NCBI GenBank assembly: GCA_014871385.1
Contig: CM026426.1
Location: 108,460,565 to 108,524,564 of the forward strand
Source: Ceratodon purpureus
Taxonomy: Eukaryota; Streptophyta; Bryopsida; Pseudoditrichales; Ditrichaceae
DNA length: 64,000 nucleotides
Direction: 5' to 3'
A model generated the notes under the pieces. It was not told the origin of the DNA and did no database searches. It was given only the letters and a program-made list of their open reading frames with translations. Positions 11,845 through 55,875 of the stretch are shown piece by piece. The position numbers and the translations under genes were made by a program. Each line of letters begins with the position of its first letter. Within the stretch, counting starts at the first letter, position 1.

Positions 11845-12087
11845 AGTGAATGATTAGGGAAGTATCGGGACTAATAGGACCAGTAGTACCAAAAGATTAT
11901 TATCTGAATAACTTAGTGTGTCTGAAAAGTGCTTGACACATTGATTTATGGAGAGAAGAATTTTTACATTCCCCCCACTCAAACCAAGTGTCTCCCCAAG
12001 CTAACAGTTTCAAGCAAGGAGCCCTCAAGGAGACCCAGGACATGAAGCACGCAAGGAGGTAAGGTGGATGTCAAATCAAAGGGGCAG

Positions 12088-13305: not shown

Positions 13306-14255
13306 ATATTATAAAAATGAACGGACGAAATGAGAGAAGGAATTAAATGAAAGTGTAGTGTTCAAAGAAGGGGGAAATATAAAAAAAAACAAATTAAAAA
13401 GTGTGGGAATATTAAATAAAAACAAGGGGAAAGGATGGGAGAGTGGTGGAATTATAAAAATGAACGGACGAAATGAGAGAAGGAATTAAATGAAAGCGTA
13501 GTGTTCAAAGAAGGGGGAAAAAAAAAAAAACAAATTAAAGGGTAGTTATAATTTGGTTTGATTTGGTGAAATCTTTGTTGAATTATAAAGAATCTTCAAA
13601 GAATGTCTCTAACAACTCCCAAATGCGACCACGTCCCCTTCCACCCAACCCCCACTAGTACCACAATCATGCCAGACCCGCAGTGTTCAAAGAATTAAAT
13701 GAATGCGTAGTGTTCAAAGAAGAGGGAAAAAAAAAAAAAAAAAAAAACAAATTAAAGAGTGTGGGAATATTAAATAAAAACAAGGGGATAGGATGGGAGA
13801 GTGGTGGAATTATAAAAATGAACGGACGAAATGAGAGAAGGAATTAAATGAAAGCGTAGTGTTCAAAGAAGGGGGAAAAAAAAAAAAAAAACAAATTAAA
13901 GGGTGTGGGAATATTAAACAAAAACAAGGGGATAGGATGGGAGAGTGGTGGAATCATAATAATGAACAGACGAAATGAGAGAAGGAATTAAATGAAAGCG
14001 TAGTGTTCAAAGAAGAGGGAAAAAAAAAAAAAAACAAATTAAAGAGTGTGGGAATATTAAATAAAAACAAGGGGATAGGATGGGAGAGTGGTGGAATTAT
14101 AAAAATGAACAGACGAAATGAGAGAAGGAATTAAATGAAAGCGTAGTGTTCAAAGAAGGGGGAAAAAAAAAAAAAAACAAATAAAAGGGTGTGGGAATAT
14201 TAAACAAAAACAAGGGGATAGGATGGGAGAGTGGTGGGATTATAAAATTTATTTG
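13306..14255. repeat. 143-bp satellite, about six units
   Basis: Units start near 13309, 13453, 13809, 13952 and 14095, which gives a period close to 143 bp. Each contains GAACGGACGAAATGAGAG, GCGTAGTGTTCAAAGAAG, an A-rich run of variable length and AAGGGGATAGGATGGGAGAG. A non-repeat stretch at about 13540-13680 interrupts the array. Differences are mostly in the A run. Confidence 0.75.
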
Positions 14256-17878: not shown

Positions 17879-18078
17879 AGGTGCTCGAGGTAGACCGTTC
17901 TTCGAAGTCTTCCGAAAGTGCAAAATTAAAAGCCTACGACTTCCCCAAAACCTCAATCACATTTACAAATTATAAACATTTACAAAATTCTCAAATGTAC
18001 CACACAAACACCATAGAGTTCAAGAGAACAAAAACAAAGACACGTGTCAGAGTGTTGGGACCCACCTGAGTACCACGC

Positions 18079-25796: not shown

Positions 25797-26035
25797 GCAA
25801 GTTCGGACGCACATTCGTTCTCCACACTTCTCAACTTTTACGCCCAGACCGCTTGCCTCTCTCTGAGTGTGCGGGCGCGCGGGGTGCGGGGTGAGCGTGG
25901 GGTCCTTGTACGACCTTAATATTCTGTAAGTACTAAATTGACCCTATTCGTGTGCTCTGTCACATTATATACTTAATGTTAATTTTTTCCCCGGAACCCA
26001 GCATATGCGAAGTGTCCGTTTAGGGTTTAAGAGGA

Positions 26036-29000: not shown

Positions 29001-29395
29001 GTACGGAGGAGATGGTTTACGAACAGGGTTACCACACGATGCGGCTAGAGATTCTCGCTTTAGAAGAAATGTTATGCAAAATTCTCCCCGCTACCAAGAA
29101 GTGGCTGGATAAGAAAGGACCAAGGCCCAAGCCAACGGTTCCCGTATGTCGTCAACGGGTGTTATCGAGTGGTGCTTTGACTTCAGGAACTTCAGGGGCC
29201 ACACCAAGGAGCGCGACACCGCCGGGGAATTCCAGGAGGAACGCGTCACGAACCCGTTTGAACCCAAGCCAATCGGCACCTCCCTCCTGCGTCCCGACAC
29301 CGTCAATTCCGCCGTCCCAGGGCCCAACGCAACCTGGCCATGGTAGTGCAGCGTCCGGATCAGGTGATACATTGCAATTAGACGATTCGGAGTGA
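26036..29395 (+). pseudogene. unit B coiled-coil RING-type protein, one frame with three TGA codons
   Basis: A single frame of 1,119 codons. Residues about 60-195 form an N-terminal domain with GNGWEEVLEPWDAAT and LMYAEHVLKKKVDW, shared with the unit A copy. A low-complexity Gly/Ser/Asp stretch follows (GLGRSDEGLGASDEGLGGSD repeats). A long coiled coil spans about 405-680. The RING-like finger (about 806-855) shows CIVCFNPFGPEE, CKHGYHPYCL and CPICSAPVH, followed by YLTFGLRDFM. The tail is Pro/Ser/Thr-rich. The frame is broken only by TGA at about 26636, 27182 and 27674, each of which fits a CGA Arg codon changed to TGA. The rest reads through without frameshift, so decay is recent or mutation is methylation-driven. 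Ubiquitin ligase activity is possible. Confidence 0.8.
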
Positions 29396-30165: not shown

Positions 30166-32100
30166 ATGGCAAACAAAAGTGGACGCATACACCAAGAATG
30201 GCGCTCCGACGGGAGCCCCACCGGAGCACTCGAGGTGGGCGGGGGGCGTGGCGGAGAGAGAACCAAGTTTAATTAGGAATTCACCCCGATGGAAAACCTC
30301 GGAGGAGGCCACTTGCAGAGAGCGCGGGGAACGCGGGGTGGCCATGGTTCCCAGAGTCACGGCTCTCGTGCAACCCATGGATCTGGGGGGCGACACGGGG
30401 CGATAGGGAGCCATGCGGCGGAAAACATCGGCAGCCAGGGCACTAGGTCTGGTCCAGCGAGCTCGAGAAGTTCTAGCGGAGTACAAGCACCCGCCATGGA
30501 AATCGTCCCGCCACCTAAACCACTACCTAGGGTATTGTGGACATCGACACCGTCCGACCTGTGTCCGCCGTCTACTGAAGAGCGTAGGGGAACTAAGCGG
30601 GCAGGAGGGTCGCAAGGAACGAAGTCTAGATGGACCGCGTCCGGTTCTGAGGTTAGGAAGCACAAGCATCGGATGAAGGTAGCCGCGTGTGACCAACATT
30701 CCACGGAGGCTAGGCTTTGCTGTAGAAAGATAATCCTGGAATGGTTTGCAAGCCAGGTTATGCCATACTTGGAGAGTACATTCTTGAATGATGGTCCGGC
30801 GGGACTCGAGAAAGGTTCAAATGCTCTGAGGCTACTACTGCAGGAGGGCATGGCGGGGGATGAGTTCCAGGAGGATAGAGGGAAGAGCAATTGGGGACAG
30901 TGGATCGAGGAAAAGGTGCAGGAGGCATTGTTCAATTCAACAGTGCCATTTAACATGTTGTATGGACCTGGTTTGGGATGTAGTGGGGGAAACTCCGAGC
31001 TCCTACAGAAGCTGGAGAATTGGAAAAGAGGCGCTATCCTCGCAAAGGGGAAGAGAAGGACTACACTGTCGAAGTTTGTCGGGAGAGCTCTGGCCAACGA
31101 CATCGCTTCTCGGGACAGAAACGGTCTGAAGTGGCTACCGAAGGGTTCTTACGCCATCCCCGTAGACAAAAATAGTTTTCAGGGTTCGTTTGGAATCGTG
31201 CGAAGGGTTCGAATTGCAGAGGCATGTTTCATCCCGGAGTGGCTTCATTTTGCAAAGAAGACCATGAAGGTGACTGACTTCAAGACAAGTCGCGATCAAC
31301 GCTCTATCGAGGCAATGTCATGTCCAGTTGATCACCCTGGTGTGATTAAGCTGCAATACCTAAACCGGAAGACGCTAGAGTCGTACTCACTATGGTGGAA
31401 CGGAGGCTCGTTGAAGAACATGCGTGCGTTCGATTTGAAATTTGGGGAAACCCATGAAATGGAACTCCTCAAAGACTCAGGTATGGACTTCGAGGCCCGG
31501 AAGAAGCTGGTCGTTTACCGAAAAAATCGAGCACACTTGGCCTGGGCTCTCATGTGCATTGTGGATGTGGTACACGGCAAGGAAGTGCTACACTGCGACC
31601 TACACCCTAACAATGTCATGCTCCACTTTCCAACAGACCGCGACGGAGCTATTTTCATAGGTATATGTGACTGGGGAATGGCTTCTTTTATGCTCGAATC
31701 GGCCCCTTCGTGCTACAGAGTACAGAGCGAAGACGCGATAAAGAAGCACATGGAAATGTACAGTTGTGCCGCTCCGGAGTTGTTCCATGTGCATGGCTCT
31801 AGAGGCTCATCCCAATCCCCACGTCGCATGGCAAAGCAACACCCTCACACGTACAAATCAGAGTCCTATAGCATTGGAGTACTCGCAAGGCAGATTTACA
31901 ACTCCGACTCAACATCGGTTCTATTTCAGCAGAACCGCGATCCTAACGGGGTTAAGATGCGCTTTGAGCAGGGTTTAGACGAAATGACCCAGATCAACCC
32001 GGCTGCTAGACAAACCGTCACACACGTCGTGAGGACGTTGAAGTTACCACCTTACAATCTGCAAACACCGAATATGTGTTTCCGGGACACCCATTCATAA
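30166..32100 (+). pseudogene. unit B protein kinase with DWG in place of DFG
   Basis: The frame from ATG 30166 (MANKSGRIHQEW) runs 644 codons with one TAG near 30275. An internal ATG at 30289 opens a stop-free 603-residue frame, so a shorter protein may still be made. The N-terminal 330 residues are unique to this family (LCCRKIILEWFASQVMPYLE). The kinase domain has GSFGIVRRVRI (about 339), FAKKTMK, HPGVIKLQYL, HCDLHPNNVMLHF (about 476), ICDWGMAS (about 500), CAAPELF and SESYSIGVLAR. Catalytic Asp and Asn are kept. It is homologous to the 5240-6808 gene over its whole length. It lies downstream of the RING gene, the same relative order as in unit A. Confidence 0.8.
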
Positions 32101-35756: not shown

Positions 35757-36753
35757 CCCAACGGCATAGAAAACCCTGGTGATCCCCTACAAGGGGCAAT
35801 ACTGCTTTATTTGGCAATTCATGAACGACAAACCTGTGAGGTTTGAAATCAAGTGCTGGGTCCTGGCTAGTTCGAAGTCCAGGTTTGTTTCTAACATCGA
35901 AGTCTATTTCGGAGAGGGCACGGGTATGGGGTGGCATGGGCTGGGATACCATGTTGTGATGCGGCTGGTGGCAGGTCTTGAGCGACGCTGGCATTGCCTG
36001 GTTGTCGACAACTTGTTTGCTTCGGTCAACCTTTTCCATGAGCTCATGTGTCTGGACTGCTGGGCTACTGGAACAGTTAGGCGAGCAAGCAATAACTTGC
36101 CCACTGGCTTGTACCGAGAGGCCAAGGACCTGGAGAGGGGCTCCATGGTGATCCGCACACACAACCATAGGCAGATGGGGGTTGTCTCGTGGCAGGACAA
36201 GTGTCTTGTGACACTCTTGAGCACCGCTGCGAGCCCGTGGGAACCAGGACTGAGTGTGCTTCGTAGAGTTCCTGGCATGCGAGTTCCTGCCTCCCTTATT
36301 CTCCTCCACTACCAAGAATATATGAGAGGAGTCGACGTTGGTGATCAGATCCGGGCCAACTACTCATCACAGCTAAGAAGCCACAAGTGGTGGCACAAAT
36401 TGTTTTTCTTCATTGTTGATCAGAGCGTAGTGAATTCCTACGTGGTGTACAGTTCAGCTATGGAGACTCTCGGTCTCAAAGTGCCGACTCACATGCAGTT
36501 CAACATTGCGCTCGGGAAGCAACTGGTGGCTCAGTGGCTTACGGAGCGACCTCGCACTGCTGCTTGCCCCCCTCCCCGGCAGAGGCGACCTGCGAAAGCC
36601 GTTCATTCCCATTGGAAGTCTGCTCTGAGGCGGAAGTGTGTAGAATGTGGACAGCGGGGATGTTGATATTGTCCTGGATGTGGCAATCAGTGGATGTGCC
36701 GTCAAAGTTGTTATCACGTCATTCATGAGCGACTAAGTCGCCTTCCATGCTAA
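35757..36753 (+). pseudogene. piggyBac transposase, 5'-truncated
   Basis: About 330 codons of a family that usually has 550-600. It starts at the IPYKG region just after the place of the first catalytic Asp, which is absent. The second and third catalytic Asp lie in VVDNLFASV and RGVDVGDQIR. Other family motifs are IKCWVLASSKS, GTVRRASNNLP and RSHKWWHKLFFF. The C-terminal cysteine-rich finger (CVECGQRGC, then YCPGCGNQW, MCRQSCYHVIHE) is split by one TGA at 36664. The break at its 5' side coincides with the right edge of unit B, which suggests that unit B inserted into or deleted the first half. Confidence 0.85.
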
Positions 36754-39697: not shown

Positions 39698-40774
39698 ATG
39701 GCCGCTGATAATCCGGGGGAGGTTCTCGATGATCTCTTGGGCGAGGCGCTCCGTGAGCTGGATTCAGTCTGAGCCTTCTACTTCTCTGTGGCGGTGAAAA
39801 CACCGGGCGATCTGCTGGAGCTGGTGAGTTCCCGGAACCCTCTGCCCCTAACCCGATTGCTGCTTGTTAAATTCTTGCATACGTCCTCCGAATTCGACTA
39901 ACCCACCATCCCTATTTTGTGTATCACTGCAGAAGGTGCCGAAGTCTTTCACAGCGCACTGCGGTTTCCCGACCTCTCACAAATGCACTCTCATCACCTC
40001 AAACACGAACAAGGAGGAGTGGCCCGTAAACCTCCAGCGTCTCGATGGAAGACAATGGGTCCACTCTGCTCAGTCAATCGGCTGGGGCTGAGGAAAATTC
40101 GTCGCAGACTTCGGCGTAGTTTTGGGTGACCTCCTCATCTTTGAGTGGGCTGGGGAAGACTGCTTGGCGGTGAAGAGAATCCCCCGCAGCCCAGAGAAGA
40201 AGCCAGAAGTTGCCACGACCCCGGCCACACCAAACAACCCCGCCATGGCCCCCTCAGTCGTTGCGTCCTTTAGCGATGCCCCAGCCACCCCTCTTGAGTC
40301 CCCACGCTTTCAGAAGACCCTCCGCATGTTGCACCTGAAACCAAACCGAACCGCTAGACTGGTAAGTGGCCTCCCCTGCCTTGTACCATTCCGAATTTCT
40401 TTTCAACTTCTTACCCTCTACACTCACAGGCATGTCAATTGCACTCTGAATTCCAAGTGAATGTCTCCTGTTATCAATTTACTGTTTATACCTTCCGAAG
40501 TTGTGGCTTGTTTATGTCGTTGCAGGACATCCCCACCCCCTACTGGAGGGCTCACGGCCAAGAACAATTTGATGGCCACCTGTTCACACTGACCGGGCCA
40601 TTGTGGTGGGGAATCGCCATGTCCGCACTACAGATCATCGACAGGCAGACGCAATGCTTCTTCACACAGGGCTGGTACAAGTTCCATGTGCTCAATAAAT
40701 TCAAGCTCCATGACACTCTCCTCTTTGTGAAGACTGGACCTACAGAATTCAAATTAACAGTGCTACCAGCCTAG
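39698..40774 (+). pseudogene. B3-domain transcription factor (two B3 domains) with two in-frame TGA codons
   Basis: Three exons: 39698-39823, 39933-40361, 40526-40774, all GT-AG and phase 0. The first B3 domain reads FYFSVAVKTPGDLLEL across the first intron, KVPKSFTAHCGFP, then KFVADFGVVLGDLLIFEWAG. The second has DGHLFTLTGPLWWGI, FFTQGWYKFHVLNKFKLHD and TLLFVKTGPTEFKL. The pair resembles the REM group of plant DNA-binding proteins. TGA codons fall at about 39770 and 40090; the second sits where a Trp or other residue is expected between IGWG and GKFV. Intron retention shows it is not a retrocopy. It is either a decayed host gene or has two base changes. Confidence 0.75.
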
Positions 40775-40966: not shown

Positions 40967-40976
40967 GTGTGGGGAA
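40967..40976 (+). repeat. left 10-bp target-site duplication of the giant MULE
   Basis: GTGTGGGGAA, repeated in the same orientation at 55866-55875, exactly where the inverted repeats begin. Confidence 0.7.
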
Positions 40977-41190
40977 GAGGGTAGCTTGTACGTGAGCGCA
41001 GAGCGCAGAGCGGAGAGCGGTGAGCGCAGATTTGGAGAGCGGAGAGCACAGAATGGGGGACAGAACCTAAAAATAGCACTTTTTTTACTAAAAATAAATC
41101 ATAAAATTAGAAGATTCGAATATTCTTAATTTATTTTTGGAAATTTACTAATTTTAGTAATTTAATTGACCCTATAACCGTGGACTAATT
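40977..41190 (+). repeat. left terminal inverted repeat of the giant MULE
   Basis: GAGCG-type minisatellite (GAGCGCAGAGCGCAGAGCGG) followed by AT-rich sequence and GACCCTATAACCGTGGA. It is about 90 bp longer than the right copy because of AT-rich sequence between the two shared blocks. Confidence 0.7.
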
Positions 41191-41958
41191 ACAGTATTTT
41201 CATTGAATTTGTAGTTCGTTTTCTCTTTTCTTGGTGATTAATTTTTTAACGTGCACCAATTACTATGCTCCAGCTCCTTCTTACTAGTTCAGGCATACAG
41301 TAATTCCCCTTATCTCCTTAAATTTATATGCAAATTACTACTTAAAATGTATTGGTATTGAACCTCTGAACAGGGATCAAGTAACATTTAATTTCGTAAC
41401 ATTTTCTTAACATTGGTAGAATTCATCCACCATAGTCTACACGCCTTTTTCCTTTTTTTTATTTTATTTTAATTTTTTTGAAATTTGTCTTGTATTTTTT
41501 ATAAAATTTTCTTTATTCTATCTATCTTGTTAGAGGGGTCAAAAGCCTCCTTTCATTTAATTCTCTCCTTCATTTTATTTTCACAATCATTTTATTTTCA
41601 CATTCAATTTGTTAATCTTCTTCATATTATTTTCAACCTTCATTTTAAATATTGCTATTCTTTTCTTTAATCTTTTTAATTTCAATTTATATAATTTTTT
41701 ATTTTTTTTTATTTTTTTTTATTATTTTTTCATTCTTTAATTTAAAAAAAAAAAATTAAATGCTAAATGACCTCTGCTAAACCTTCATCTTTTTCCATTC
41801 GGTTTAAGAGGATGACAACTTCTCAATGAATGAATAGCCGATTTTCAAGGGCGCCAAGCATCTTCTTCAGGGATATTTAAGATAAGAGTAGGGAATGTCT
41901 CTGCCTCTTTTGTGTTGGTGTTATGTGAAGCTCTTTTCCGTAGTGCGGGACAGCAGCT
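41191..41958. other. AT-rich subterminal region
   Basis: Low-complexity T/A runs (41450-41760). GGGATATTTAAGATAAG near 41870 holds a TATTTAAG box for the following gene. Confidence 0.5.
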
Positions 41959-42411
41959 ATGGAAGACGTCAGAGATATTGTTGTTTCACTTGCTGACGAT
42001 GTTTGTCCATTTCAACCATATGTTGAGGTGGAGGACGAAGAAGAGGTGATGGCCAACAGCCAAGGGCGTCCTTCGACAACGGATGTTGACGTCCAACCGG
42101 ATGTAAGAGCTGACCCTCCACGTTCAGAAAATTCGGATGAAATCATAGTGCTAGAGAAGGACGCAGATGTGCCTTTGCAACCACATGCATACTCGAAGGT
42201 TGGAAAGATCCCAAGGGGAACCTATTCCAGGGAATCAGTTAATCGGAGGCGGGGAGGTGGGCCATTGCTGAAACGATCATACCAAGGACATTTGCCAAGT
42301 GTGGGAACGAAAGTGAATGCGAATGTAGTTTGTCCTGTAGTACAGTCAGCGGCTGGCAGTCCTGCTGATAGTGTAGTGGGCAACCCTAAACGTGTTAGGT
42401 TCGAAGATTGA
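41959..42411 (+). CDS. small acidic/basic protein of the giant MULE
   Basis: 150 residues, intact. The N-terminus is acidic (EVEDEEEVMANS). DEIIVLEKDADV resembles a SUMO-interacting motif. The C-terminal half is basic (GTYSRESVNRRRGGG) and ends PKRVRFED. No family is recognised. It is tail-to-tail with the transposase gene and its TATTTAAG box resembles that of the 46934 gene, so the two may be co-expressed accessory genes. Confidence 0.55.
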   Translation: MEDVRDIVVSLADDVCPFQPYVEVEDEEEVMANSQGRPSTTDVDVQPDVRADPPRSENSDEIIVLEKDADVPLQPHAYSKVGKIPRGTYSRESVNRRRGGGPLLKRSYQGHLPSVGTKVNANVVCPVVQSAAGSPADSVVGNPKRVRFED

Positions 42412-42665
42412 GACATCTAATAACAAGTATATGTTTGCTGTAATAAAAGATACATGTCAGGGGATACGAAGTATATAGTGCACTTGTTCAAGATAGATTG
42501 TATTGAAATAGAATGCAATTAATGTGAACGACAAAGCCCTTAATATAATGAAAAAGTCAATACAGCTTCTATATTGCTGACTTAGTACATGGGATATTAC
42601 TAAAATCATTCACTACGTGACAAATGGCCATTGTGGAAATGGCAGTTCTAAAGTAGGAGGGCTAC
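42412..42665. other. convergent 3' intergenic region
   Basis: Lies between the 3' ends of the 41959 gene and the transposase gene. AATAAA-like words are present on the plus strand (GTAATAAAAG near 42441), which may serve as polyadenylation signals. Confidence 0.4.
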
Positions 42666-45600
42666 CTACTTCTTCGCCAAGGGGTGACGCAAGATTCCAC
42701 TCTCTAGGAGAAGCTTGACCTCGTTGAAGCTAAAGGTAGGCGCATGGATGAAAAGCTCCGCTTCGGGATCACGGTTGCAGACCTTCAAGAGTATGTAGTA
42801 TAGGTGCTTACAATACGTGAACAGAGTCTTGCCACGGAACGTAGTCATCGTCTTCTTGAATGCTGGGCAAGTGCAACCAGGGTAAGAACTGATGGTAATC
42901 TGGTACCGTGTGATGTGTGGAGCGACGCCCGAATCCAGCCCAATGATGCAACCGTGGCCCGGCTCTGGTATCATGGTGACGGAACGGAGGCGCGCTTTAA
43001 GAGACTCGGAGGAGCCCATGGAGAGTCGCTGCGCTTGATTGGGACGAGTGGCAGTGCGCTTCACCATCTTGCCGTCTCTCTTCCCTGGGTAGCGGTCAGC
43101 GTCTGCAGGGACTGGCAGCGAGCTGAGATTTGCAGGGGGCGGGGCAGAGGAGAAGAGGCGTCTTGGGGAGACAGGTTTCTTCTGCGGAAGTTGAAAGCCC
43201 GCTGCTTCGAGGGCAAGAATCTCAGTAAGTTTTAGGTTAGTACCTAGTTTCACTGGCCACACCTCTGGAATGGAGGGGAATTCCTGGTCCTTTGAGTAGT
43301 GTGCTACCCACTTGCGCTTAGAGCCTTTCACGCAACGCTCGATATCGTCGGAGCAGAAGAAGAACTCAGTCTTCTCGACTAGGTTCCTGCGATAGTTAGT
43401 CCAGAGCCCAGTGTAGGTCGGTGCAGCTGTGCAATGGGGCCCCCTGACGATTCTCTCAGTGCACTTCTTCTTCGTTTCAGCTCTTTGGGCCCAGCAGCAC
43501 TTCGCAGAAAGTTTGTGAAGTCTCGAAATGTGCCACTCCTTCACGTCCACCTTGGTTTCTTCAACCGCGTTGACATGGCGAATGCCGCCCTTGTTCACAG
43601 GTGAAGGTAAAGGAGAATCAACTTCCTGGGCAGGAGGTTGGGTACATTGTACGTCGGTGTCGTGTTCGGAGTCGTCTTCCACAATGACGGGCATCTGCAT
43701 AGGGCGAGCCCTGACGGCACGTCTTGGGCCTCTTGGGCGTGAGAAGTTTGTCTTGTCCGGGCGATGAGACTCTTCGTCAGCTCCGATAAGGACGTCGGCT
43801 TTTCGCTTCTGTGAACCGAAGACTTCCGCTCCTGGCATGATAGGCTGACGGGTGCAGAACTCATCCGCGCCTGGCATATCGAGCATGGGCTTGTCGAGCA
43901 GTGTAGGATTTCCCCATTTCTTCGCGTTGCGTTCCGCCATCCGGAGCCGGAGTTCCTTCTTCGATGGTCCTGTTCCGCCGACGTCACCTTTGAGGAACTG
44001 GTAGAAGTTGACAACCTGTAGAAAAGCCCGAACGAAATCGTCCACGGTAGCAACGTACAGGTCGTTCCCGTTGTTTCCTGAAGCTTGGAGCCACTTGTTG
44101 TGAACTGTTTCGGCGAGGTTACACGTGGGCATCTCCGTGAGTTCTTCTTTCGTGAATTTCTGCAGATTTGACAGTAGATGCCGTTAGATTCACGGATTAG
44201 AGTTTTGTAGGTTAGGGCTAGGAAACCAGTATCAAAAACATCAAAACAGAGAGCAGAGATAATACCTCTGTCATGAATCCCCCCCACTGGCGGAAGCGGT
44301 GGTGCCAGAATGACAGCCACTGATCGAGTTTGATGAGCCCGCTCTCGCCAACGACCCCAGTGGATGCCCACCATGCTCGCAACGCGTGGTACAGAGTTTC
44401 CGCCTCTGCCATGCTGGTCGCATTCTTGTACTGAGTGCACATCTTCTTGTGCTGTTCCCAGAGTTCTTCGGGGAAGTGCTTCTGCGTATACGCCACCATG
44501 TTCTGAGTCCAGTGGAACAAGCACGACCTCTCCCGGTCCTCCATTGGGTCCTCTTTGTTGCCATTGCCGTAAAGGATTCGCACTGCATTCCAATTCGCCT
44601 GTGCGTTATCCGCCATGAACCCCTTCAAGTTCGGCGCTGCAACGCCATTGATCTCCATGACCATGTTCAGGTTTTTCCAGAAGACGAGCTGGGCCTCCGT
44701 GTCCTCGGACTGCATGTCGCAAGTGGCGATTGTCATCACGCGGCAGTAGGTGGCGTCGTACACATGGCACGCCATGGTCGACCAGTCTTTGACGCGTTTT
44801 ACATGGTCGAACATGATCCATGCGTTCTCCAAGTCGCCACCAGCTTGCATACGGCTGACCAAGTCGACGCCACTTCCCGGCCCGACCTCCGACATCTTGA
44901 AGACAAAGACTTTGTCACGCATAGATCCCTGACCGGGAAACCTATTCTCCTGGACATACGCCCAGAGACTGTTACCACGGAGCTTGGTGATACCGTCCAT
45001 GATTCCGTACCTTACGAATTTTTTGAAGGTGGCGACTTTGTTGCGGATGTTTGGTGACGCCATGTCTTTGCATCGATCCCGAACAGGAACCAGCTCCTCC
45101 ATCGTCAGCTTCCTCGGTGGTGCATCCTCGGGCTGTAGAAGGTAGCTCCCGATGAGGAGTTTGCTCGCCTCCAGGACAACGGCGCTCTTTGTAGCTTTGT
45201 TGTTCATCTCTACCTGCTCTTCTATTAAGCTACTAATCTCTGCTTTAGAGTCTCTGTAGTCTCCAACTTTCACTGGATGATCATGTGTTCCTATGTGAAT
45301 ACAAGCTCTAGTCTGATTCGGTTTGCCCACAACGTAATAAATCTTAGCCTCGCATGTAGCTACACATGATGGAGGTTCTTTACATACCTTGCACACTAGC
45401 GTGGAGTCAGATGGAGGAGGCTGGTCCATGACAAAAGCTTGCAGGGTACAGCCTTCGAACTCAGTCTCGTTAACCTCGAAGATCTTGGGAACACGCTTGA
45501 GGAAGTCACACTCCGTGTTGCTGCAGCGGAGCCATCCGACGCAGGTGGAACTTCGAAAAGAGATTCCGCAGTCGTTTTTGATGTTTGTTGTGATGGTCTT

Positions 45601-46344
45601 GGTCCACAAGTGTCCGTCGTATCGTTTGTCCATTCCCTGCATTGACTTGGCGGCGAGCTTAGAGGATCCTGCAGCAGGTGGGGGCAGCTCAAAAAGAACC
45701 GGACCATCAAACTTCGCAGGCAAGTACTCTACTCTCTCGTGTCTAATAGTGGAATAGTCTATCTTCTTCAAAATGTTTTTGGACCCACGCGTCTTCGCAA
45801 TCTCTTTAAGGAGCGGAACAATGCTAACTGTGACCTGGGACAATGGAGGAGACACATTGGAAGGAGGAGCATCTGCGTGGACCTTAGGCACCAACTTCAC
45901 GGGACTGACTTCGTCATCAGAAGAGAGAGATATGACGGTCGGAGGAGGTTTCTCTACATCTGAAGTCTCCGTTCCAGGCTCGAGTTTGACCTTGACATCA
46001 CGAGGTAAGGGAGTCTGAATTGTGCAAGTAGAAGAGCGACGGGGGGTGAGGATCTCAGTGGATGCAGCCATAAGAGAATCAGTAAGACCATAGACTCTGT
46101 ACGATCCAGGGAGGAGTCTCCACTGCAACATGTTGTTCTCATCTCTCACAGAAGGTTGCCCGAGGGTGTGGGTAACCTCGGCAGTAACGTCATCAAAGAT
46201 CTCCTCCTCTATACTGATGGAATCCTCACGGAAATGGAATCTGAGACTAAGGCGAAGAGAGGACACCGTAGCTAGACCATCGTCATCTACGCGGAACCTA
46301 AGAGGGATACCCATGCCTTGGGCGTACAGACAGACCATCCCCAT
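42666..46344 (-). CDS. MULE transposase with zinc-binding N-terminus and SWIM finger
   Basis: Two exons, 46344-44266 and 44159-42666, joined in phase 0 (GGFMTE to KFTKEELTEM) give about 1,190 residues. An upstream ATG at 46422 is also in frame. Residues about 145-160 hold VISLSSDDEVSP, a SUMO-interacting-like motif. A WRKY/FLYWCH-like finger (about 260-355) has CVGWLRCSNTECDF and HIGTHDHPV. The MULE core has VYDATYCRVMTIAT (about 529) and GFMADNAQANWNAV (about 577), the likely catalytic Asp residues, and LFHWTQNM. The C-terminal SWIM finger is CTCPAF then YCKHLYYIL (about 1119). The frame is intact, which supports an autonomous element. Confidence 0.75.
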
Positions 46345-46933
46345 GTTCGCAGGGAAATCAGAGGCACTACAGGAAGAAGGGAGAAGAGGGAGTGTACTAG
46401 CGAAGCAGTATCGCGAGAGCAAAGTGAGAGGAATGATGCATCGCTGTTGATCATTTTATTGAAGTTGGAATGTCCATGGTAACAGCTGCAGAATGATTCA
46501 TTCTGTTACTAAGCGAATGTATGATTAATGAGAGACGGCGCAGACTAAATTGAATGCAACTTTTTACAGGCCCCTACATAACAGGTAAGATATTTATAAC
46601 TGTACTTTTAAAATTTGAATCATGGTTCGGATTCGATTTGTTCTGACGAATTATAGGATTAGAATGAGCCGTCAATGAATAAAAAAAGGAGCATGCAATG
46701 AAGTGCTTCAATCAATTCTTTAACTTATTCCGTGTTTAAATATGTTCTATTTCTTTTAAGGATGATATTTTGGGATTTACTTTAATTCTAGAATGTGAAC
46801 AGTATTCTTAATATGAAGAGGGCAGAAAATGTGTCAGTGGTTAACATTGAATATCAACTTAGGGATGTTTGTTATGTGTATTTAAGCCGGGAGGAACTTC
46901 TCTAGAGAGCCTTTTCGTGAGAGAGTTCTTCGT
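46345..46933. other. divergent promoter region between transposase and the 46934 gene
   Basis: On the plus strand GTATTTAAGCC near 46878 is a probable TATA box. On the minus strand a TCAATAAAATG box lies near 46455. No reading frame is supported. Confidence 0.45.
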
Positions 46934-47413
46934 ATGGTTAGACACATGAAGCAGAGTGGAGGGCCATCTCCCTCAACTTATGTCACTCCTAAACCTAGAA
47001 GAAAACCCGGTGGTACAGATTTTACGGATAGAAGAGCGAGGAAGAGGAGAGAGTCACGTAAGAAAGTAGTATTTAAAGGCGACCATTTGAGTGCACCCGT
47101 GAAAAGAAGAGGAGCAGGTCTGCCCGTAGCTTTGAAGTTTTCTAGCATTCGAAAACTCATTCTCTCCTCTATAGTGGAGGAGGAGGAAGAGTTTTTAGAC
47201 AGCACCGTCACCGAGAGTCAGAAGCAGGAACCGGAACTACTTCTAAGCGGAGTGCAGCGTGAGGCCATGACGGAAGAATTAGTTTTTAATTGTAGTCAAA
47301 TAGAGTCACCGCAGCCGTCTATCAAATTCAATGACTCTTTAACGGGCGAGCCAGATTCTGTATCGGATCTACATTTTGACTCCAATGAGGTTTGTAATTT
47401 TAAACCATTTTGA
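46934..47413 (+). CDS. small basic-to-acidic protein of the giant MULE
   Basis: 159 residues, starting MVRHMKQSGGPSPS. A strongly basic first third (RRARKRRESRKKVVF) is followed by LKFSSIRKLILSSIVEEEEE and an acidic tail. The basic part could bind nucleic acid or act as a nuclear signal. The final GAG/GTTTGT at about 47390 could also be a splice donor, in which case this would be a 5' exon of the next gene. I favour a separate gene because the next frame has its own ATG. Confidence 0.5.
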   Translation: MVRHMKQSGGPSPSTYVTPKPRRKPGGTDFTDRRARKRRESRKKVVFKGDHLSAPVKRRGAGLPVALKFSSIRKLILSSIVEEEEEFLDSTVTESQKQEPELLLSGVQREAMTEELVFNCSQIESPQPSIKFNDSLTGEPDSVSDLHFDSNEVCNFKPF

Positions 47414-47573
47414 CTGCCATTGATCGTTTATATTAGTCCAGTACTATAATGAATAGATGCTTAATATTTACGATAGTGAACTAGTAATAGGCAAGTTTCA
47501 GGTGGATATATATCATCTCGATCTGAAATGACACATGTAATTTTATTGAATTTATGGATAGAGTAACGAAAGG

Positions 47574-50500
47574 ATGAGGGCATTCGATGAAGCAAGTAGA
47601 CCATCAGCTGCTCAGGAGGGGAGCGAATTCGAACACTTGCGGGTTGTTGGGAGGCGGGCGAGGAGTGAGATCATGAGAGCAGGGGAAGGGGGTGAGACCA
47701 TGGCTTTGAGATTGGAGCAGGGCAGGCGTGAGGAAGAAGATCAAGTCGGTGCCGAGGCCTTGGTGCAGGGTCCTGTCGGAATGGCCGCGGGAGAGCAAGG
47801 AGTTGGGGAGGATCAGGTCGGCGTTGATGGGTTTGCGAGCGAGGACCAGCAGAGGACGGACGGGGAGGACGGAGAGGAAGAGCGCGAAGATGGAGACGAG
47901 GTAAGCAGCTAGATAGATTCTCGGCTGCTTGAATATTGATGCCAGTGATTGGGGTTTGAATCTTGGCATTTGAACCGTAGGCTGTAATCGAATGTACGGC
48001 ATGGGTAATGATTGGTGTCCGTACAGATTCAGTTGTACAAGTTTGACATTGTGGTACTCATTGTTGATGTGGGTGTTGTGTCGGAATTTGCTGTGGGTTG
48101 GGGGTAGTTCGGTTGCGGAGTTTTGGTTTTGGCTTCGGGGTTTTTAATGAGAAGAGATTTCGGAGTTGGGTTTTGATCTTTTGCACGTGCCTGTGGCTTT
48201 GTGCTTAGCCTGGTCGCTTACTCTTTTGATATCCGAGTGTCTGCCTTAAAGCGGAAGTCGTGAAGCTTTTTTTTTCTGGATTTCTCTGTGTCCCAGTCGT
48301 ACCGATGCTGCTAACCCGGATGGCCTCATTCTGCCACTCGAGCAAGTTATGAACTTAAGCTGAAGGCAGGTCCTTCAGCTTCTACATGAACCCAGCTCTG
48401 GAATTTCTATTGAGATTTGTTTATGTTGATTGCTGCTTGTAGAGGGCCAGGGGCTGCTGTTTTTGGGAATTTATGTATTAATATTTAGAAGTTTTGTTGC
48501 ATTGTCTCGCCGGGAAGAGTTTATCTCAACATTTATTCTGCTCTTGCACGACCTGAAATTGCACAAAGATCGTGTGAGTAAATCCTAAGAAGTCACCACG
48601 CAATTAGGTCGGCACAAAAAACCTTAAGCAGCATGCACGAAATTTGAATTCACTTGCTACTGCTGAAGCTTCAGGCTGCTCTGCTTGGAGCTGAATGCGA
48701 AACGGTTGAGAGGTTCTCTGTGAGCTTTTGTTGCTTAGGGGTGCTCTGCTTGATAATACTTACTTTATTTTAAAAGAATATTTTTAAATTAAGAACCCTC
48801 CCAGCCTACTGTCTGTGACGACAGTAGGCTGGACATGCTTAAATTTTGATTTATACCGAGGCTCCCTCCTTCGAGGGGGAGCTTTGCTTGCATTTGCTCT
48901 GGAATTTCTATTGAGATTTGTTTATGTTGATTGCTGCTTGTAGAGGGCCAGGGGCTGCTGTTTTTGGGAATTTATGTATTAATTTTTAAAAGTTTTGTTG
49001 CATTGTCTCGCCGGGAAGAGTTTATCTCAACGTTTATTCTGCTTAGGGGTGCTTATGTATTGATAATGGTTTTTTTTTTTTTTAATATAATTTAAAATTA
49101 AAAACCCTCCCAGCCTACTGTCGTCTCAGACAGTAGGCTGGACATGTTTTAAATTTGACATGTTAGCATTGCTAACCTTTGCGGCTCTTACTCATTTTTG
49201 TGGCTTTTTTTTTTTTAAATATTTAAAATTAAGTGCCGTCCCAGCCTACTGTCTTCGAGGGGGAGGATTGGTTGCAAGGGCTTCTGTTGGTGACTTGGTC
49301 AAATTCTCGGCTGTTGTTGTTTGGGGCTCCATGAGAGTGAATGCGTGATGGTTTTTTATTTGTTTAATTTTACATTTCAATATTCTTTTAACTTAACAGT
49401 TACAAGAATGTTCTTCCATGTTTGATGTAACATCATAAACGTTCCTTGTGACTTAGGAATCCTCTGAGGACAACATGGAGAGCCAAGGTCAAGATCCGAC
49501 TCCCGCAGAAACCGAGGTACTTTTTTACTTTCTACTGAAAACCTATGATTCTTTTGATCCTAATAGTTTGTCCTCGACCTCTGCGTTGTTGTTTCTCTCA
49601 TTTTTGGATCTGCAGTTTAACCTTAAATTATTTTATGTACACTAGGTATATTCAGATGCTCCTGAGATGTCCGCCACATCCCCCATTTCAGTCATCAATG
49701 TTTCCGATCTCTCGGATTCATTTGATCAGCCTTATTGTACCTGTGATGTAGCCAACCCTGTAGGTGTGGAAAGTGGACCTCTCGAGGTCCACTCTCCTCA
49801 GTACATGCCTACCTCGCCAGTGTACATGCCTACCTCTCCAGTGTACATGCCTACATCCCCGGTGTATGAGCCAACCTCCCCGGGCTACATGCCCACCTCC
49901 CCTCCACAGGGTTCACCGCCGATGTCTCCACCCTCGCCTTCCTCGCCTATTAGAGTAAGAAGGCCAGCACATGTGGTCTTCGCGCTTCCGGCAATTCTGC
50001 CGTGCCCGGTTCAGCAGACCAGGCGGTTTTGGAGGAGGCGCCATCACTGGAACTGTAGACAATCCAAGGAGTACTATAGTCGAGCATCACGTAGATAGTT
50101 CCTTCCATCGCAGATGACGATTGACTTGTTACAAAAGAAATGACAGTATGAAGATATATTGTTACTTTCTTTTACATACTTGTCTTCTTTGCATGACTTC
50201 CTTTCATTGTGATTCCTCTCTTAATTCGAACACCTCTTCGCAGGTTACGCTAACACAAGATGTGTTGGCAAAACCCTCTTGCCCGATCGACTTGAAGACT
50301 GCTATGGAAGGGGAATTGCAGCATCGAATAACATACAAGTTGGACTCCAACGCCGTCATCAACAACTGCAGGATCAAACCGTCGCACAAGTCTCGAATGC
50401 TGGTGCCCTTATGCAGGATGATTCCAATGGCCAAGGTTAGACCAGTGGGTGAAATGGGGGTACAACACTTGGAGCGAGAGTTTGTTAAGGGATATAGAGA

Positions 50501-53500
50501 TGGGGACCGCGTCATGTACATCTCCATGTACAACACCGAAGAGGAAACGAAGAATGTGACGGCGGAGATCATGGCCACTTGGAGCCCTTTATGGAGGGCC
50601 GCAAGTGATCGCTTTGATGATGAGGTCTCTGGGGACGAGGAGTTGATGCAGTTCAAACACAAGATGTTTTATGTCTGGGAGGGTAATCATCGCCTCTCTG
50701 CTTGGCTCCGACACATCAACAAGCATCATGCGGACGACCCATCCTGGCACATCACTGTGCATTGCATTGTACTTGACGCTCGTGGCCATGTGGGTATTCT
50801 CCTGCACGCTATGCACGACATCAACTGGTACGTTCAAAAAACTTGAGTATTTGTTATCCACTTCGAATCATTTTCTATAATATTTCTTCAACTTATTTAC
50901 TAATTTGATATTCAGGTCGACCGAGAATGACCACGTGAAGAGTAATCTCCCAGCAAAATTGTTTCAAATCCGCTCATTCGGAATGATGAAGCTGGAGGAG
51001 TTCAAGGACCTTCCGAACTCTCAAGAATACGATGCTTGTTTGAAAAACAAGCCCTCGAACCCGTCATGGTTTCCCTTGACTACTCGAGTTTTCATCGCAT
51101 TTCTCTACCGAGTAAGTTTGACCTCCTCTCCGTCTTCGCTCGTTCTATCTTCTCTCATACTTTGAAAGATTAATTTCGTTCATTTATGAATTTTCTAAAA
51201 ATTGGTTATCCTTCTACAGCGGGAAATTGCTGTGGCCTCGGATGAAGCAGCTAATGCCTACATGGAGAAGACACCGGCGGATGAACAGACTGCGTCTGCG
51301 GTTTGGGAAATCATGAATGACGCGTCTGAGAAAATGGTGGAATCCATAAAGAATAAGGACTTCACCAAGTACTTGGCAATTGCAAACCCCAAAAACGGAG
51401 ACGACTTCCTGAATGAGGTAACAACTTCATTCAATATCATTTAAGAATTTGGATTTGATTCAAAGTTCTGAATACTATTTTCTAATACTTCTCTGCTCCT
51501 GGCAGATCAATCGGCATTACAGTCTAAACTCCAAACCTGAAATGTCCCTTGATAAGCTCCAGAAGATCTGTCCGGCGGCCGTTGAGCCCAAATACAAGGT
51601 TCGGTGGCTGCGGTGGTGGAACTCATCTCTGAGTTCCAGACTATCTTACAGATTTCCACCGCCAGGATTCAAGGATACTGATTTTGACCCTTGGTTGAAC
51701 AGGGCTTCATTCTGGGCTGGGGTATAGTTTCGAAATATGCCTTACCAATTACAACATGCTTTCTGAATTCTTTTCTCATTGGTACTTACTTCAATTCTGT
51801 ATTTCAGTTGGAGGAGGCCGTCGTCAACGAGGTCGAGGACATATTCAAGTCGGAGAACCTCGATATCGACTGGAGGGCATTTCCTGATGTCCAACAGCCG
51901 GGCGATTATGTCGAGAGTTCACGTATTATGTTGTGGGACAAGGCCTTCCCTACGTTCATTGGAAAGAGAACTAAGAAGCCCTTCGAGAAGAAGTCCGACT
52001 TCGCTAAATTCCCTGGAACCGCTGATGTTGTCAAGCGCGTTATTTACCGGTATATTGCGTTACTTTTTCTTATTTGCATATTCTAATTCGCTAGAGCTTT
52101 CTATGCTACTAACCTTCTAAATCTCTTCTCTTAGGTACTTCAAGCGAGAGCTTGTTTTGAAGGGGGTCATCACAGTCCAGCAGCTACCCAACTACTTCCG
52201 TTCTTGGACGCAGACAACCTCGGACCAGTGTATCTATTCTCCCCAGCAGCTGCAAAGGTACAAAGCTCCTCACGTGCTTGAGGGATGCTGGTACCTTGAT
52301 TGCTCTCGTGGTTTCACGATTGATTCAGAGGTCGAAGTCAAGACTCTACACGATGGGGGTGCGGTGGTGGTCGAGGACACAGAGGATGGTGCAGACGATT
52401 TTGGAAGCCCTGAAGATCAATCCTCTGCTCCTCCACCGAAGAAAGGGAGAGGAAGGCGATTGAAATCTCTACGTTCTCAGTCAGAGGCATCACAGCAAAC
52501 TGGTGCGGAGTCTTCCGCGCCAGCTGACAAGGCACCAGATCCGTCTCCGGGTGTTGTCGTTACCAACCCTTCTCCAGCTTCTTCGCCGGCTCCTTCATCG
52601 ATCAGTGCTTCGGAGATCACCAGAGGTCTCCTTCAGCAGAGGAAGGCCAAACTATATCCTCAAACAACTTCTTCGGCTGGAGCTTCGAACTCCACACATG
52701 TTTCCGTCTTCAACTCATCTGTGGATTCCCTGTTGCGGCGAAATAGGAGACAGGAGAGAAAAGGTGGCGACCCGGATTGGATCAAGACTCAAGACTTCAT
52801 TCGCAAGGTATGTTCCGATATTTTGACATTTAATGGATTCTGCCACCTCTACTCGCTATGTAGTTACTAACTCTCCTTTCTTGTTTCCTCAAGTTTGGAG
52901 CACGCCGCGAAAACGAAGTTCCGGACCGGTGCAAACAAGAGGACCATCTGGGAGTCGACTTGATCATTGCCGACATCCCTGAGAATCTTCCTGTCCCATC
53001 CGTTTCCGTTCCCCCCACGAGTATTCCGCCTTGGAACTCTCGCTACAAGGATTATTTGTATGACATCTTCCATTTTGCAGATGAATTTCTGCAGAAAGAT
53101 GGTGCCATCTGCCTCATCTACAACACTGATCAGAAGCTGGCTAAGGATATCGAGGAAGAAGCTGCTAGTGGTGGATACGTGCTGTTCAAGGACTGGTGGG
53201 GTGTCAATGTACTCGGCCTGACTTCTCCTACGAACCCCGAGAACTTGGTACTTTTCCTGAACATGCCCTTCTCTTCGCTTACTGATAACCCTTCCGCTTC
53301 ATTTTACTCACTTGTTTTGCTTGACTGCAGACTATGCGATTCTGGATTCGCGTCTACGTTCGTAGTGGCAGTACTTTCTCCTTCCAGACGAAGAAGGAAG
53401 AGCTGATACATGGGCTCCTCAACATTACCGAGAGTGATGCCATTTTCAACTTGACCGATGTGGATTCGCAGCTCATGAATGGGGAGGTGCCGTGGAGAGG

Positions 53501-54210
53501 CCCAAGGGAGAAATCCATCGAGATGATGCAGGGCATACTTGAGGAGCTGTCGAAGCCCGGCGACATAGTTGTTGATTGGAATGCAGGGACAGGTAACTAT
53601 TCATGCATATATTTCCTGAATTATTCTTCTCGTTTTTACCACAGTTTCTCATTTCTTTGTATCTCTCTGAGTTTCAGGAGCCTCCATCAAGGCTGCCCAG
53701 GCTATTGGTTGCCACATTCTCGCTTTTGAGGAGGACGAAGCCATATTCAACGCCCTTCTCAAACCATCCGCCATGGGTCCTCCTAAACATCCAAGGCCGG
53801 CAGCAGCAGGCGAAGCGCCTCCAAAGAGAGCAAGACCTGACAAGTGGTGTAAGTCTTCTATTCTTTCTTTATATTATCCAATCTTTACTGCTCTTTCTAG
53901 CTCTACGTACTCTATCTAACCACGGTCGGTTCTCTATTGCAGAGTAGTTTCAGCAATACCGCCACGTGGGCCAAGAGCAGTGTCCACTCCATCGTGGCGT
54001 CTTCATTCCAGCCCGATTCAGCCTTTCATACTTCCGGACTACGCAGAGGACTTAGCACAGGCGTTTCAATCTGGATCCCTTACATATGTTCCTAGTCGGC
54101 CAACTACTTTTGATCCCAGGGCCCTTCTATTCGTCGATGACGAGGCGGTAGAAGGAGAATCAGAGTCATCTAGTTCTGAGAGTGGAAGTAGCGATGGTAG
54201 CATGTTTTGA
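47574..54210 (+). CDS. 13-exon gene: CTD-like heptads, ParB-like domain, beta-class DNA methyltransferase-like domain
   Basis: Exons 47574-47900, 49457-49516, 49646-49954, 50244-50827, 50916-51111, 51220-51417, 51506-51721, 51808-52049, 52135-52807, 52894-53247, 53331-53592, 53678-53848, 53945-54210; all GT-AG with matching phases, 1,285 residues, no stop. Residues 1-130 are Glu/Gly-rich. Residues 181-217 hold five YMPTSPV-type heptads. Residues about 260-430 are ParB/sulfiredoxin-like (EGNHRLSAW at 379). A Ser/Pro/Lys linker follows. Residues about 935-1165 match N4/N6 methyltransferases of beta order: ADIPENLP where DPPY is expected, then PGDIVVDWNAGTG where DPFxGSG is expected, followed by AAQAIGCHILAFEED. 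The changed motifs suggest binding without catalysis, or altered chemistry. The tail is acidic and Ser-rich. Confidence 0.78.
48400..49260. repeat. tandem repeat with perfect hairpins in intron 1
   Basis: A segment of about 140 bp at 48399-48540 recurs at 48897-49040 (TCTATTGAGATTTGTTTATG onward). Each copy is followed by a 32-bp hairpin, stem CCAGCCTACTGTC, at 48801-48832 and 49110-49141. The stems are the same but the 6-base loops differ (TGTGAC, GTCTCA). A half stem at 49241-49253 is fused to TTCGAGGGGGAG, which is also found at 48873. Confidence 0.75.
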
Positions 54211-54724
54211 GTTTTAAGGAGGCTTCGGTCTTTCATTGTTTTCATTGGATTTGATTTGATTTAATTGGAGTTCATTGCGTAATCCTTCGTCTACTCTACT
54301 ACCCTGAATCTATACTTGTTACGATTCTCATTTCCAAATCGTCTCCTCCTATGAAGAGGATGAAATGTCACAACTGTAATGCTCAAAATATAATATGAAG
54401 AATGAAATGTTACAAAAGAAATGCTCAAAATTTTAATTGCGCTGTATTTTATATTTTAATCATTCAAAATCCCACATTTCCATAGCCATGTTACCTATTC
54501 TTGACTTGGTGTACATCTTGGTTTCTTCTACTCCATTATTCTACACGAACTCTGAAATATTCCACGAACTTTGAAGACCATCTCTTTTAGTTGGTTTCGA
54601 GTTCTCTTATTTCTAGAATCATCTATATTATCTAAAACCATCATGCTGGAATACTCGTATCTAGATCCAATACATGACCAAATCTTAAGGATTGTATTCG
54701 AACACCCCGCTAGACTTCACAGTA
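54211..54724. other. 3' flank, no gene seen
   Basis: AT-rich region between the convergent 3' ends of the methyltransferase-like gene and the 54725 gene. CACGAACTCTGAAATATTCC and a near copy (CACGAATTTTGAAATATTCC at about 55427) form a short direct repeat. Confidence 0.4.
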
Positions 54725-55096
54725 CTATTCCTTTGGAGGATATACAGTCCAACTCTTGTCCATATCAAACCAGCAAGTTTCGCCATCCGATATGATCACT
54801 TCGGGCAGCTGAACAACTGGATTGTCATCGACGTTCGAAAGCAAGGGATACGGGATTAGGGACAACTCTATAATACGGAGAAGCTCATTGGTACAAAGCA
54901 CTGTCCAACGCCATTCACCTTCACTAACATGGAGGCTTCCGATGTGCCTAAACGGTGGCAGGTCCATGCCTCGTTCTCTAACGCGCTCCACCTCCAACAG
55001 CCACGGCCGCAGCTCCTCATAACTCGCCGGTGCCTTTGGGGGCAAACCTACAGCCGTTCTCGTCCTCCTGGATCTCGCATTACACACCTTCGGCAT
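54725..55096 (-). CDS. small protein of the giant MULE, unknown family
   Basis: 123 residues from the ATG at 55096, starting MPKVCNARSRRTRTAVGLPP. The basic first 20 residues are followed by a compact, varied-composition region with YEELRPWLLEVERVRERGMD, EGEWRWTVLCTNELLRIIEL and VVQLPEVIISDGETCWFDMD. Composition and lack of bias support a real protein. No family is recognised. It lies convergent to the ParB-methyltransferase gene and within the inverted repeats, so it is probably element-encoded. Confidence 0.5.
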   Translation of the reverse strand: MPKVCNARSRRTRTAVGLPPKAPASYEELRPWLLEVERVRERGMDLPPFRHIGSLHVSEGEWRWTVLCTNELLRIIELSLIPYPLLSNVDDNPVVQLPEVIISDGETCWFDMDKSWTVYPPKE

Positions 55097-55734
55097 CGCG
55101 CAACACACTCAATTCTTGTAGTCTTCAAACGTTACAGTCAAGCTTGTAGATTGACATCCCCGAACTCCTACGCTACCTTCGCATACACCACAGAATGCCA
55201 AGGACTGTGTCACTATCCTAATACGCCACCTAGAAACAAGCTCAAGAAACCAAGAGTGACCTCCTCATCTGGAACCTAGCTTACCAAGTGCTGTTTTATG
55301 ATGAAAATCTCCTACTTGTATCACTCAAATGAAGATGCTTTGCTGCCTACGAAGAGAGAGTAATCTTCGATGAAGACAAGGACTCTAACAAGGTATATCT
55401 TGGTTTCAGCATTTCAGATATTATACACGAATTTTGAAATATTCCAGGAAGTTTTCAAACCTTGCCTCCTTTATGTTCTGTGAAATTTGTTTCTTTCCTT
55501 GTGCATTTACGGAACCTATGAAAGAATTAATTGTTTGATCTAGAACTTAACGCCTGATCATTATATCTTGCCTAAACCCATGAGAAATCTAACAAAATAT
55601 ATGCATGACGTCATCATGACATCAGCCCTAATTTGTATCTTAGAGAACAAACGTAATAAATTCTTACCAGAGATAACCCTGATTTCCACGGTAATATACT
55701 CTTTTCCTAAAAAAAGTGTCAAAATCAAGCCTTA
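55097..55734. other. upstream region of the 54725 gene, no other gene seen
   Basis: No further coding frame supported. ATATATGCATGACGTCATCATGACATCAG near 55600 contains overlapping ATGACGTCAT-type palindromes, a bZIP-like site in the possible promoter. Confidence 0.4.
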
Positions 55735-55865
55735 ATTTAGTAATTTTCCACGGTTATAGGGTCTACTTTGCTTTTGAAAATTTTGCTAACTGTCAATTTT
55801 GTGCTCTCCATTCTGTGCTCTCCGCTCTCCGCTCTACGCTCTCCGCTCACATACGAACTTTCCCC
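55735..55865 (-). repeat. right terminal inverted repeat of the giant MULE
   Basis: Reverse complement of the left end: GTATGTGAGCGGAGAGCG, further GAGCGGA words, GAGCACAGAATGG, and GACCCTATAACCGTGGA at 55747-55763. Confidence 0.7.
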
Positions 55866-55875
55866 GTGTGGGGAA
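55866..55875 (+). repeat. right 10-bp target-site duplication of the giant MULE
   Basis: GTGTGGGGAA, identical to 40967-40976. Confidence 0.7.

Follow-up and report, generated by a model that had tools for sequence, protein, structure and literature searches.

A stretch of 64,000 nucleotides from Ceratodon purpureus (Bryopsida; assembly GCA_014871385.1, contig CM026426.1, positions 108,460,565 to 108,524,564; the whole stretch is called the window here) contains what looks like a single insertion with defined boundaries, 14,889 bp long when its target duplication is not counted. It carries two long genes in divergent orientation, one for a transposase-like protein and the other for a large protein with the fold of a DNA methyltransferase (MTase). 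We tentatively read this sequence as a large, structurally intact element of the Mutator-like element (MULE) type that brings along an MTase-fold protein of its own as an accessory factor, possibly with an anti-silencing role. This reading is founded on a perfect target-site duplication (TSD) and the alignment of the two ends, two frames that stay open over 1,190 and 1,167 codons and have consistent splice sites, a D-D-CxxH-N[LMQ]xE residue pattern, the MTase fold, five intergenic palindrome half-sites, and the precedent of the VANC proteins of Arabidopsis MULEs. The features of the element are collected in Table 1.

Table 1. Features of the element, in coordinates of the window (aa, amino acids; ORF, open reading frame)
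Feature	Position	Strand	Description
Left TSD copy	40967-40976		GTGTGGGGAA, two occurrences in the window
Left terminal inverted region	40977-41184	+	22-bp terminus, GAGCG array 40994-41052, AT-rich spacer, GACCCTATAACCGTGGA 41168-41184
150-aa ORF	41959-42411	+	0 of 500 regional shuffles reach its length; no Pfam match listed at E<=10
Transposase-like gene	42666-46344	-	exons 46344-44266 and 44159-42666, 1,190 aa
Possible 159-aa ORF, weak	46934-47413	+	length reached in 8 of 500 shuffles; no Pfam match listed at E<=10
Five exact CCAGCCTACTGTC copies	48801-49253		inverted pairs 48801-48832 and 49110-49141 (6-nt centres), single copy 49241-49253
MTase-fold gene	49475-54210	+	12 exons, 1,167 aa; YxPTSP repeats at aa 67-100, aa 118-840 without assignment, N6/N4 MTase domain at roughly aa 841-1054
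123-aa ORF, weak	54725-55096	-	length reached in 15 of 500 shuffles; no Pfam match listed at E<=10
Right terminal inverted region	55747-55865	-	GAGCG array and common 17-mer
Right TSD copy	55866-55875		GTGTGGGGAA

Element ends and transposase-like gene

The ends of the element are real. Both are directly abutted by the perfect 10-bp direct repeat GTGTGGGGAA, as the original prediction had stated, and the length of this repeat lies inside the range of 8-11 bp given for TSDs of MULEs (PMC6446971; here and below, citations refer to the accessible portions of the papers). Directly inside the TSD, the tips GAGGGTAGCTTGTACGTGAGCG (left) and GGGGAAAGTTCGTATGTGAGCG (right, opposite strand) are identical at 16 of 22 positions by count, which is the predicted figure, and the inverted arms formed by the tips running into the GAGCG arrays agree to 85% over 48 nucleotides (nt) and to 88% over 32 nt. 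Local alignment of the two 300-bp ends, a comparison that the original prediction had suggested, yields a score of 69, whereas 500 dinucleotide shuffles average 20.4 and do not exceed 31, and the maximum for 500 random pairs of places is also 31. The predicted GAGCG arrays and common sequence are present at both ends as well. Nine of the 12 matches to the array pattern GTGAGCGNAGAGCG in the window (up to 2 mismatches) lie at the two ends and three elsewhere, and none of 100 shuffles gave 12 matches. The non-repetitive 17-mer GACCCTATAACCGTGGA is exact on both sides, with no other match in the window at up to 3 mismatches. Its distance to the tip is 191 bp on the left and 102 bp on the right, and the inner spacers are accordingly unequal in length; measured up to this 17-mer, the imperfect terminal inverted repeats comprise 208 bp (left) and 119 bp (right).

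According to a splice-aware model, the transposase-like frame consists of two exons separated by one intron and has its sole stop at the end. The encoded protein contains D530, D579, C608-x-x-H611, and an NLAE segment with E710, and this D-D-CxxH-NLxE order is presumably that of Mutator transposases. In addition, it possesses a Cys/His-rich stretch (aa 268-357) and a SWIM-like CxC..CxH arrangement (aa 1122-1145), for which the SWIM profile gives a weak match close to the C-terminus (E=0.11, 12.5 bits, under the cut-off of 19.6); zinc fingers such as SWIM are frequent but not universal in MULEs. When formulated as D-D-CxxH-N[LMQ]xE, the pattern fits the transposase-like protein, 12 of 29 bacterial PF10551 proteins, and none of 608 control ORFs with 300 aa or more; in the transposase-like protein, the leftmost match begins at D494, D530 being our own choice. 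The bacterial set derives from 111 genomes, 30 of which have a match (24 above the cut-off), and 29 of these 30 loci provided a usable ORF. Among viral_contigs, 39 pattern matches were obtained as possible transposase relatives and none was confirmed, exon 1 found no match among plasmids, and a single-sequence AlphaFold2 model of the transposase core (pLDDT 48.2) is too poor for use. Since there is no Pfam MULE match, the rank as a MULE rests on ends and motifs, and the apparent label "Mutator-type" on the 10-bp TSD, the ends, and the residue arrangement rather than on proven homology. The original prediction of an intact MULE transposase is borne out as regards the unbroken 1,190-aa frame, but not as regards MULE membership by profile.

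Methyltransferase-fold gene and intergenic palindromes

The exons of the MTase-fold gene were set by hand, and the frame and GT-AG splice sites were checked; an automatic model missed one exon, shortened another, and stopped early. The hand-set model comprises 11 introns and has its sole stop at the end, and visual inspection suggests a possible alternative to the last acceptor 9 bases further upstream. Where the original prediction had seen an intact ParB-methyltransferase-like gene of 13 exons and 1,285 residues, there is indeed an unbroken MTase-fold gene, but in the hand-set model it has 12 exons and 1,167 aa, and the ParB part of the name is not supported (see below).

Judged by sequence comparison, a beta-class N6/N4 DNA-methyltransferase fold is located near the C-terminus of the protein. 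The whole fold could be aligned, with the motif IV region ahead of motif I, and identities to four phage proteins amount to 24, 19, 23, and 26%. The Pfam family PF01555 scores 28.4 bits for the domain alone (cut-off 26.7) and 24.2 bits, below cut-off, for the whole protein, and the PHROG match of the MTase stretch has an E-value of 3e-10; Pfam, PHROG, and NCBIfam matches span the motif-I half only. With the alignment of 124 relatives, hhalign reaches 98.0% (E 2.2e-13) over aa 841-1054 for the whole protein and 98.4% (E 5.4e-15) for the C-terminal part alone, shuffles staying at or below 0.5%, although these E-values are generous because the relatives were chosen by their likeness to this very domain. 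With eight ParB-methylases alone, the motif-I half reaches 76.2% and the motif-IV half 1.1%. For the relatives, the best ORF was taken from each of 149 out of 151 loci, which include four phage records, at least 67 loci from viral_contigs, and at least 80 loci from genome_contigs. Used as a single query, the MTase stretch gave two matches in viral_contigs, neither of them confirmed, three weak matches in a PDB sequence search (the best to DpnA, E 0.076), and three weak matches in NCBIfam (best E 0.00067), far below the cut-offs.

The motif-I-like segment DWNAGTG preserves the aspartate and the glycines. In the classical enzymes, the catalytic motif is (D/N/S)-P-P-(Y/F/W), the aromatic residue of which stacks on the target base, and the motif IV of the protein described here, DIPE (aa 847-850), does not fit it. 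The last residue of motif IV is aromatic in 123 of the 149 relatives (DPPY 59, DIPY 41, DVPY 11, DPPF 10, NIPF 1, and SPPY 1), whereas one has EPPE and 25 are without the motif under the pattern employed, which admitted Y, F, W, or E alone at the last position. A phage relative reads ADIPYN where the MTase-fold protein reads ADIPEN. With a glutamate in place of the aromatic residue, binding of S-adenosylmethionine (SAM) and DNA is therefore expected rather than normal catalysis, and the catalytic activity of the protein appears doubtful.

Two stretches in the N-terminal part, MIPMAKVRP (aa 176-184) and YVWEGNHRLSAWL (aa 260-272), look ParB-like by eye. In a comparison with 29 chromosomal ParB proteins, hhalign gives 0.1% for ParB_N profile similarity and hmmsearch no match, and with the N-terminal parts of the eight ParB-methylases hhalign gives 0.8%, two of the latter serving as controls and reaching 94.3 and 89.4% against the chromosomal set. 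On these profile tests (0.1-0.8%), the ParB label was rejected. The ParB-methylases themselves form a small collection of fusion ORFs of 421-488 aa from viral and bacterial loci (L034, L035, L051, L027, L031, L010, L220, and L226), with E-values of 2.9e-5 to 1.8e-13 for the ParB part; the profile search among the loci had returned nine ORFs, and that of L127 was dropped, its MTase stretch not being significant. Further upstream in the MTase-fold protein, five YxPTSP repeats (window positions 49801-49902) resemble the tail of RNA polymerase II. The Pfam score of 16.6 bits is under the cut-off of 20.3, and we take this to be a low-complexity likeness rather than kinship. The ORF holding exon 3 found no match in viral_contigs and none in a PDB sequence search, a comparison of exon 3 with phages returned seven records (best E 4), and AlphaFold2 on exon 3 alone (pLDDT 37.5) gave a model too poor for use.

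All five half-sites with the sequence CCAGCCTACTGTC are situated between the two divergent genes, on the side of the MTase-fold gene and 222-674 bp upstream of its ATG. Elsewhere in the 64 kb, there is no CCAGCCTACTGTC at up to 1 mismatch and there are two at 2 mismatches. The same intergenic region contains a 148-nt duplication (98%; 48395-48542 and 48896-49043). By analogy with the VANC motifs in VANDAL elements, the palindromes could be protein-binding sites, or else they could form RNA hairpins. Concerning the three small genes of the original prediction, the 150-aa ORF stands out from its shuffles, whereas the 159-aa and 123-aa ORFs are weak (Table 1). A 69-nt direct repeat (75%; 54511-54579 and 55393-55461) brackets the 123-aa ORF and could mark how this piece arrived. 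A search of Rfam at its gathering threshold gave no match.

Readings of the element

From the anatomy of the element, we infer that a single 14.9-kb cut-and-paste DNA transposon of the Mutator type would have inserted at this site, duplicating 10 bp of the target, and that the large zinc-finger transposase encoded on the minus strand would bind the repeat-rich ends and move the element. The second gene, in divergent orientation, would provide a large protein that has a DNA-methyltransferase fold of the beta class close to the C-terminus and most likely functions as an accessory factor of the element. This protein may bind DNA, the intergenic CCAGCCTACTGTC palindromes being possible sites, and perhaps also SAM, and might in this way alter how the DNA of the element itself is silenced or modified. 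Given the DIPE sequence of motif IV, classical methylation is proposed to be slight or absent.

Several points speak against such an interpretation. The element is known here from one copy and from its sequence alone. No PF10551 (MULE) match to the transposase-like protein appears in a Pfam listing up to E 10, and hhalign with the bacterial PF10551 proteins gives 0.3-0.4%, within the range of shuffled controls (maximum 0.7%), the best stretch with the whole protein (aa 576-662) beginning next to D579. The D-D-CxxH-N[LMQ]xE pattern was devised after the sequence had been viewed, is absent from 17 of the 29 bacterial PF10551 proteins, and is matched by 31 of 2,000 shuffled transposases. A plant mobile domain (PMD) or a VANC-type domain of unknown function is not among the Pfam matches listed at E<=10, a listing in which HMMER filters discard most weak matches. 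Finally, the link between the palindromes and the MTase-fold protein is conjectural.

Alternatively, the MTase-fold gene might be a passenger, i.e., a complete host gene that a MULE has captured and that plays no role in transposition. MULEs often capture host sequence (PMC6431247; PMC13317346), and the gene has 11 introns compared to a single one in the transposase-like gene. However, full-length host genes are captured only in exceptional cases, and the Pack-MULEs of Jiang et al. (2004) all stay within the 7 kb of the full-length element (PMC6431247); as the MTase-fold gene also retains a complete open frame, we consider such a passenger somewhat unlikely. That the protein is an active N6-adenine or N4-cytosine methyltransferase, marking the DNA of the element as a self-tag or for steering host silencing, would agree with the preserved fold and DWNAGTG segment and with the 5-methylcytosine DNA methyltransferases (DNMTs) found in retrotransposons of dinoflagellates and one charophyte (PMC5890265). 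The DIPE motif, at a place where most relatives have an aromatic residue, makes this quite improbable, and activity was set aside as the default reading.

The imperfect identity of the tips and the long intact gene might also be expected of a once-mobile element that is now fixed and whose MTase-fold gene serves the host. Such a domestication seems very improbable to us, for the transposase-like gene is equally open over its 1,190 codons and the two 10-bp TSD copies are identical, and these two features suggest a rather young insertion. It is still conceivable that two separate small insertions in opposite orientation came to lie around unrelated genes, as a simple repeat such as the GAGCG array could originate on two occasions, but the perfect 10-bp direct repeat exactly at both ends and the non-repetitive 17-mer in common render a chance assembly extremely improbable.

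The preferred reading, a MULE-type element with its own accessory MTase-fold protein, can be extended to a whole lineage of large autonomous Mutator-type transposons, in which a prokaryote-type N6/N4 MTase fold with a reworked catalytic motif would be a standing component and would constitute, together with the palindromes, a system for self-recognition and anti-silencing with an origin independent of VANC; in this general form, the proposal is unlikely. If the MTase-fold gene were indeed a standing part of a family, this would mean that a base-modification protein of bacterial type has been acquired by a DNA transposon and that mobile elements deal with host silencing in one more way, in addition to VANC and the DNMTs of retrotransposons. 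It would also show that elements of the Mutator type can remain intact at a size of about 15 kb. There are known examples both of Mutator elements with epigenetic cargo and of retrotransposons that carry DNMTs (PMC5735166; PMC5890265).

Surroundings and comparison with known systems

About 200 bp from the insertion site, an ORF (40358-40771, +) shows a weak B3 DNA-binding domain (E 0.0064, below cut-off), and the neighbour of the element may be a host B3 gene. Two related hAT-type elements are recognized by their ORFs (1892-4936, +, and 8407-11853, -; DUF659 and Dimer_Tnp_hAT), and ORF 35770-36663 (+) encodes a PF13843 transposase (E 2.5e-36), presumably of the piggyBac family. Among the transposons and about 24 kb apart, ORFs 5243-6340 (-) and 30277-32097 (+) are related to each other (38.75% identity over 320 aa); the latter has a protein-kinase match (PF00069, E 1.3e-9), and the pair is possibly cargo of another element family. 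Two other related ORFs, 17333-17956 (-) and 26024-26635 (+), are without assigned family (30% over 109 aa), the second being located upstream of ORF 27677-29392 (+) with weak RING-finger matches. Elsewhere in the window, an ORF contains a Myb/SANT-like domain (E 1.7e-11), and region 13308-14248 harbors an array of a 143-bp unit, with 3.8 copies at 13692-14247 and further related copies upstream. The B3, Myb/SANT-like, hAT-type, and PF13843 matches could fit a genome of the green lineage.

With respect to size, CACTA elements of 16-20 kb are described from a red alga (PMC6431247), and MULEs of arthropods measure 1.4-10.0 kb (PMC13359780). Accessory features of MULEs include FAR1, SET, an ovarian-tumour gene, and PMD, whereas a DNA methyltransferase is not found in the accessible parts of Table 1 of the same paper, the main text of which has no word beginning with "methyl-" (PMC6446971). 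A MULE with an N6/N4-type MTase was not among the 10-15 best-ranked papers of each of several literature searches, which left most subscription papers outside.

In bacterial and phage ParB-methylases, of which there are eight clear examples, a beta-class MTase at the C-terminus likewise follows an N-terminal domain. In contrast, the N-terminal part of the protein described here is without a ParB profile match, and about 500 aa lie between the supposed ParB stretch and the MTase. For one bacterial ParB-methylase, nicking activity resides in its ParB part (PMC5512222).

Among mobile elements, the VANDAL elements of Arabidopsis are also MULEs with an extra protein beside the transposase and with short repeated motifs in non-coding parts. 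VANC proteins bind such motifs in their own MULEs, which leads to a loss of methylation there (PMC5735166). However, the accessible text does not present VANC as having an MTase fold (PMC5735166; PMC13317346), the motifs of the present element are palindromic and five in number, and the system is known from its sequence. Kaonashi (KIU) elements are MULEs with a further whole gene, as one of their three coding genes has a Ulp1 domain, and VANC genes are described in the same paper, the accessible text of which does not contain the word "methyltransferase" (PMC13317346). The original prediction held that gene-capturing MULEs usually carry fragments; taken to mean that MULEs do not bring whole genes, this view is too strong in the light of VANDAL with VANC and Kaonashi with its Ulp1-domain gene (PMC5735166; PMC13317346). 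Unlike the MTase fold, the Kaonashi domain is of the protease type, and these elements are without terminal inverted repeats. SET domains are protein methyltransferases. MULE-Phytophthora_1 is a MULE group with SET recorded for 14 members (PMC6446971, Table 1), differing from the present case in having SET rather than a DNA-MTase fold and in its oomycete hosts. Retrotransposons with acquired DNMTs in Symbiodinium and Klebsormidium, one of the hosts being a charophyte, similarly combine a mobile element with a gene of the DNA-methyltransferase type, but their enzymes are of the C5-cytosine type and one is located inside the Pol polyprotein, whereas here a separate N6/N4-type gene resides on a DNA transposon (PMC5890265). 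The combination of parts in the Ceratodon element is apparently new, while the kind of precedent to which it belongs is known.

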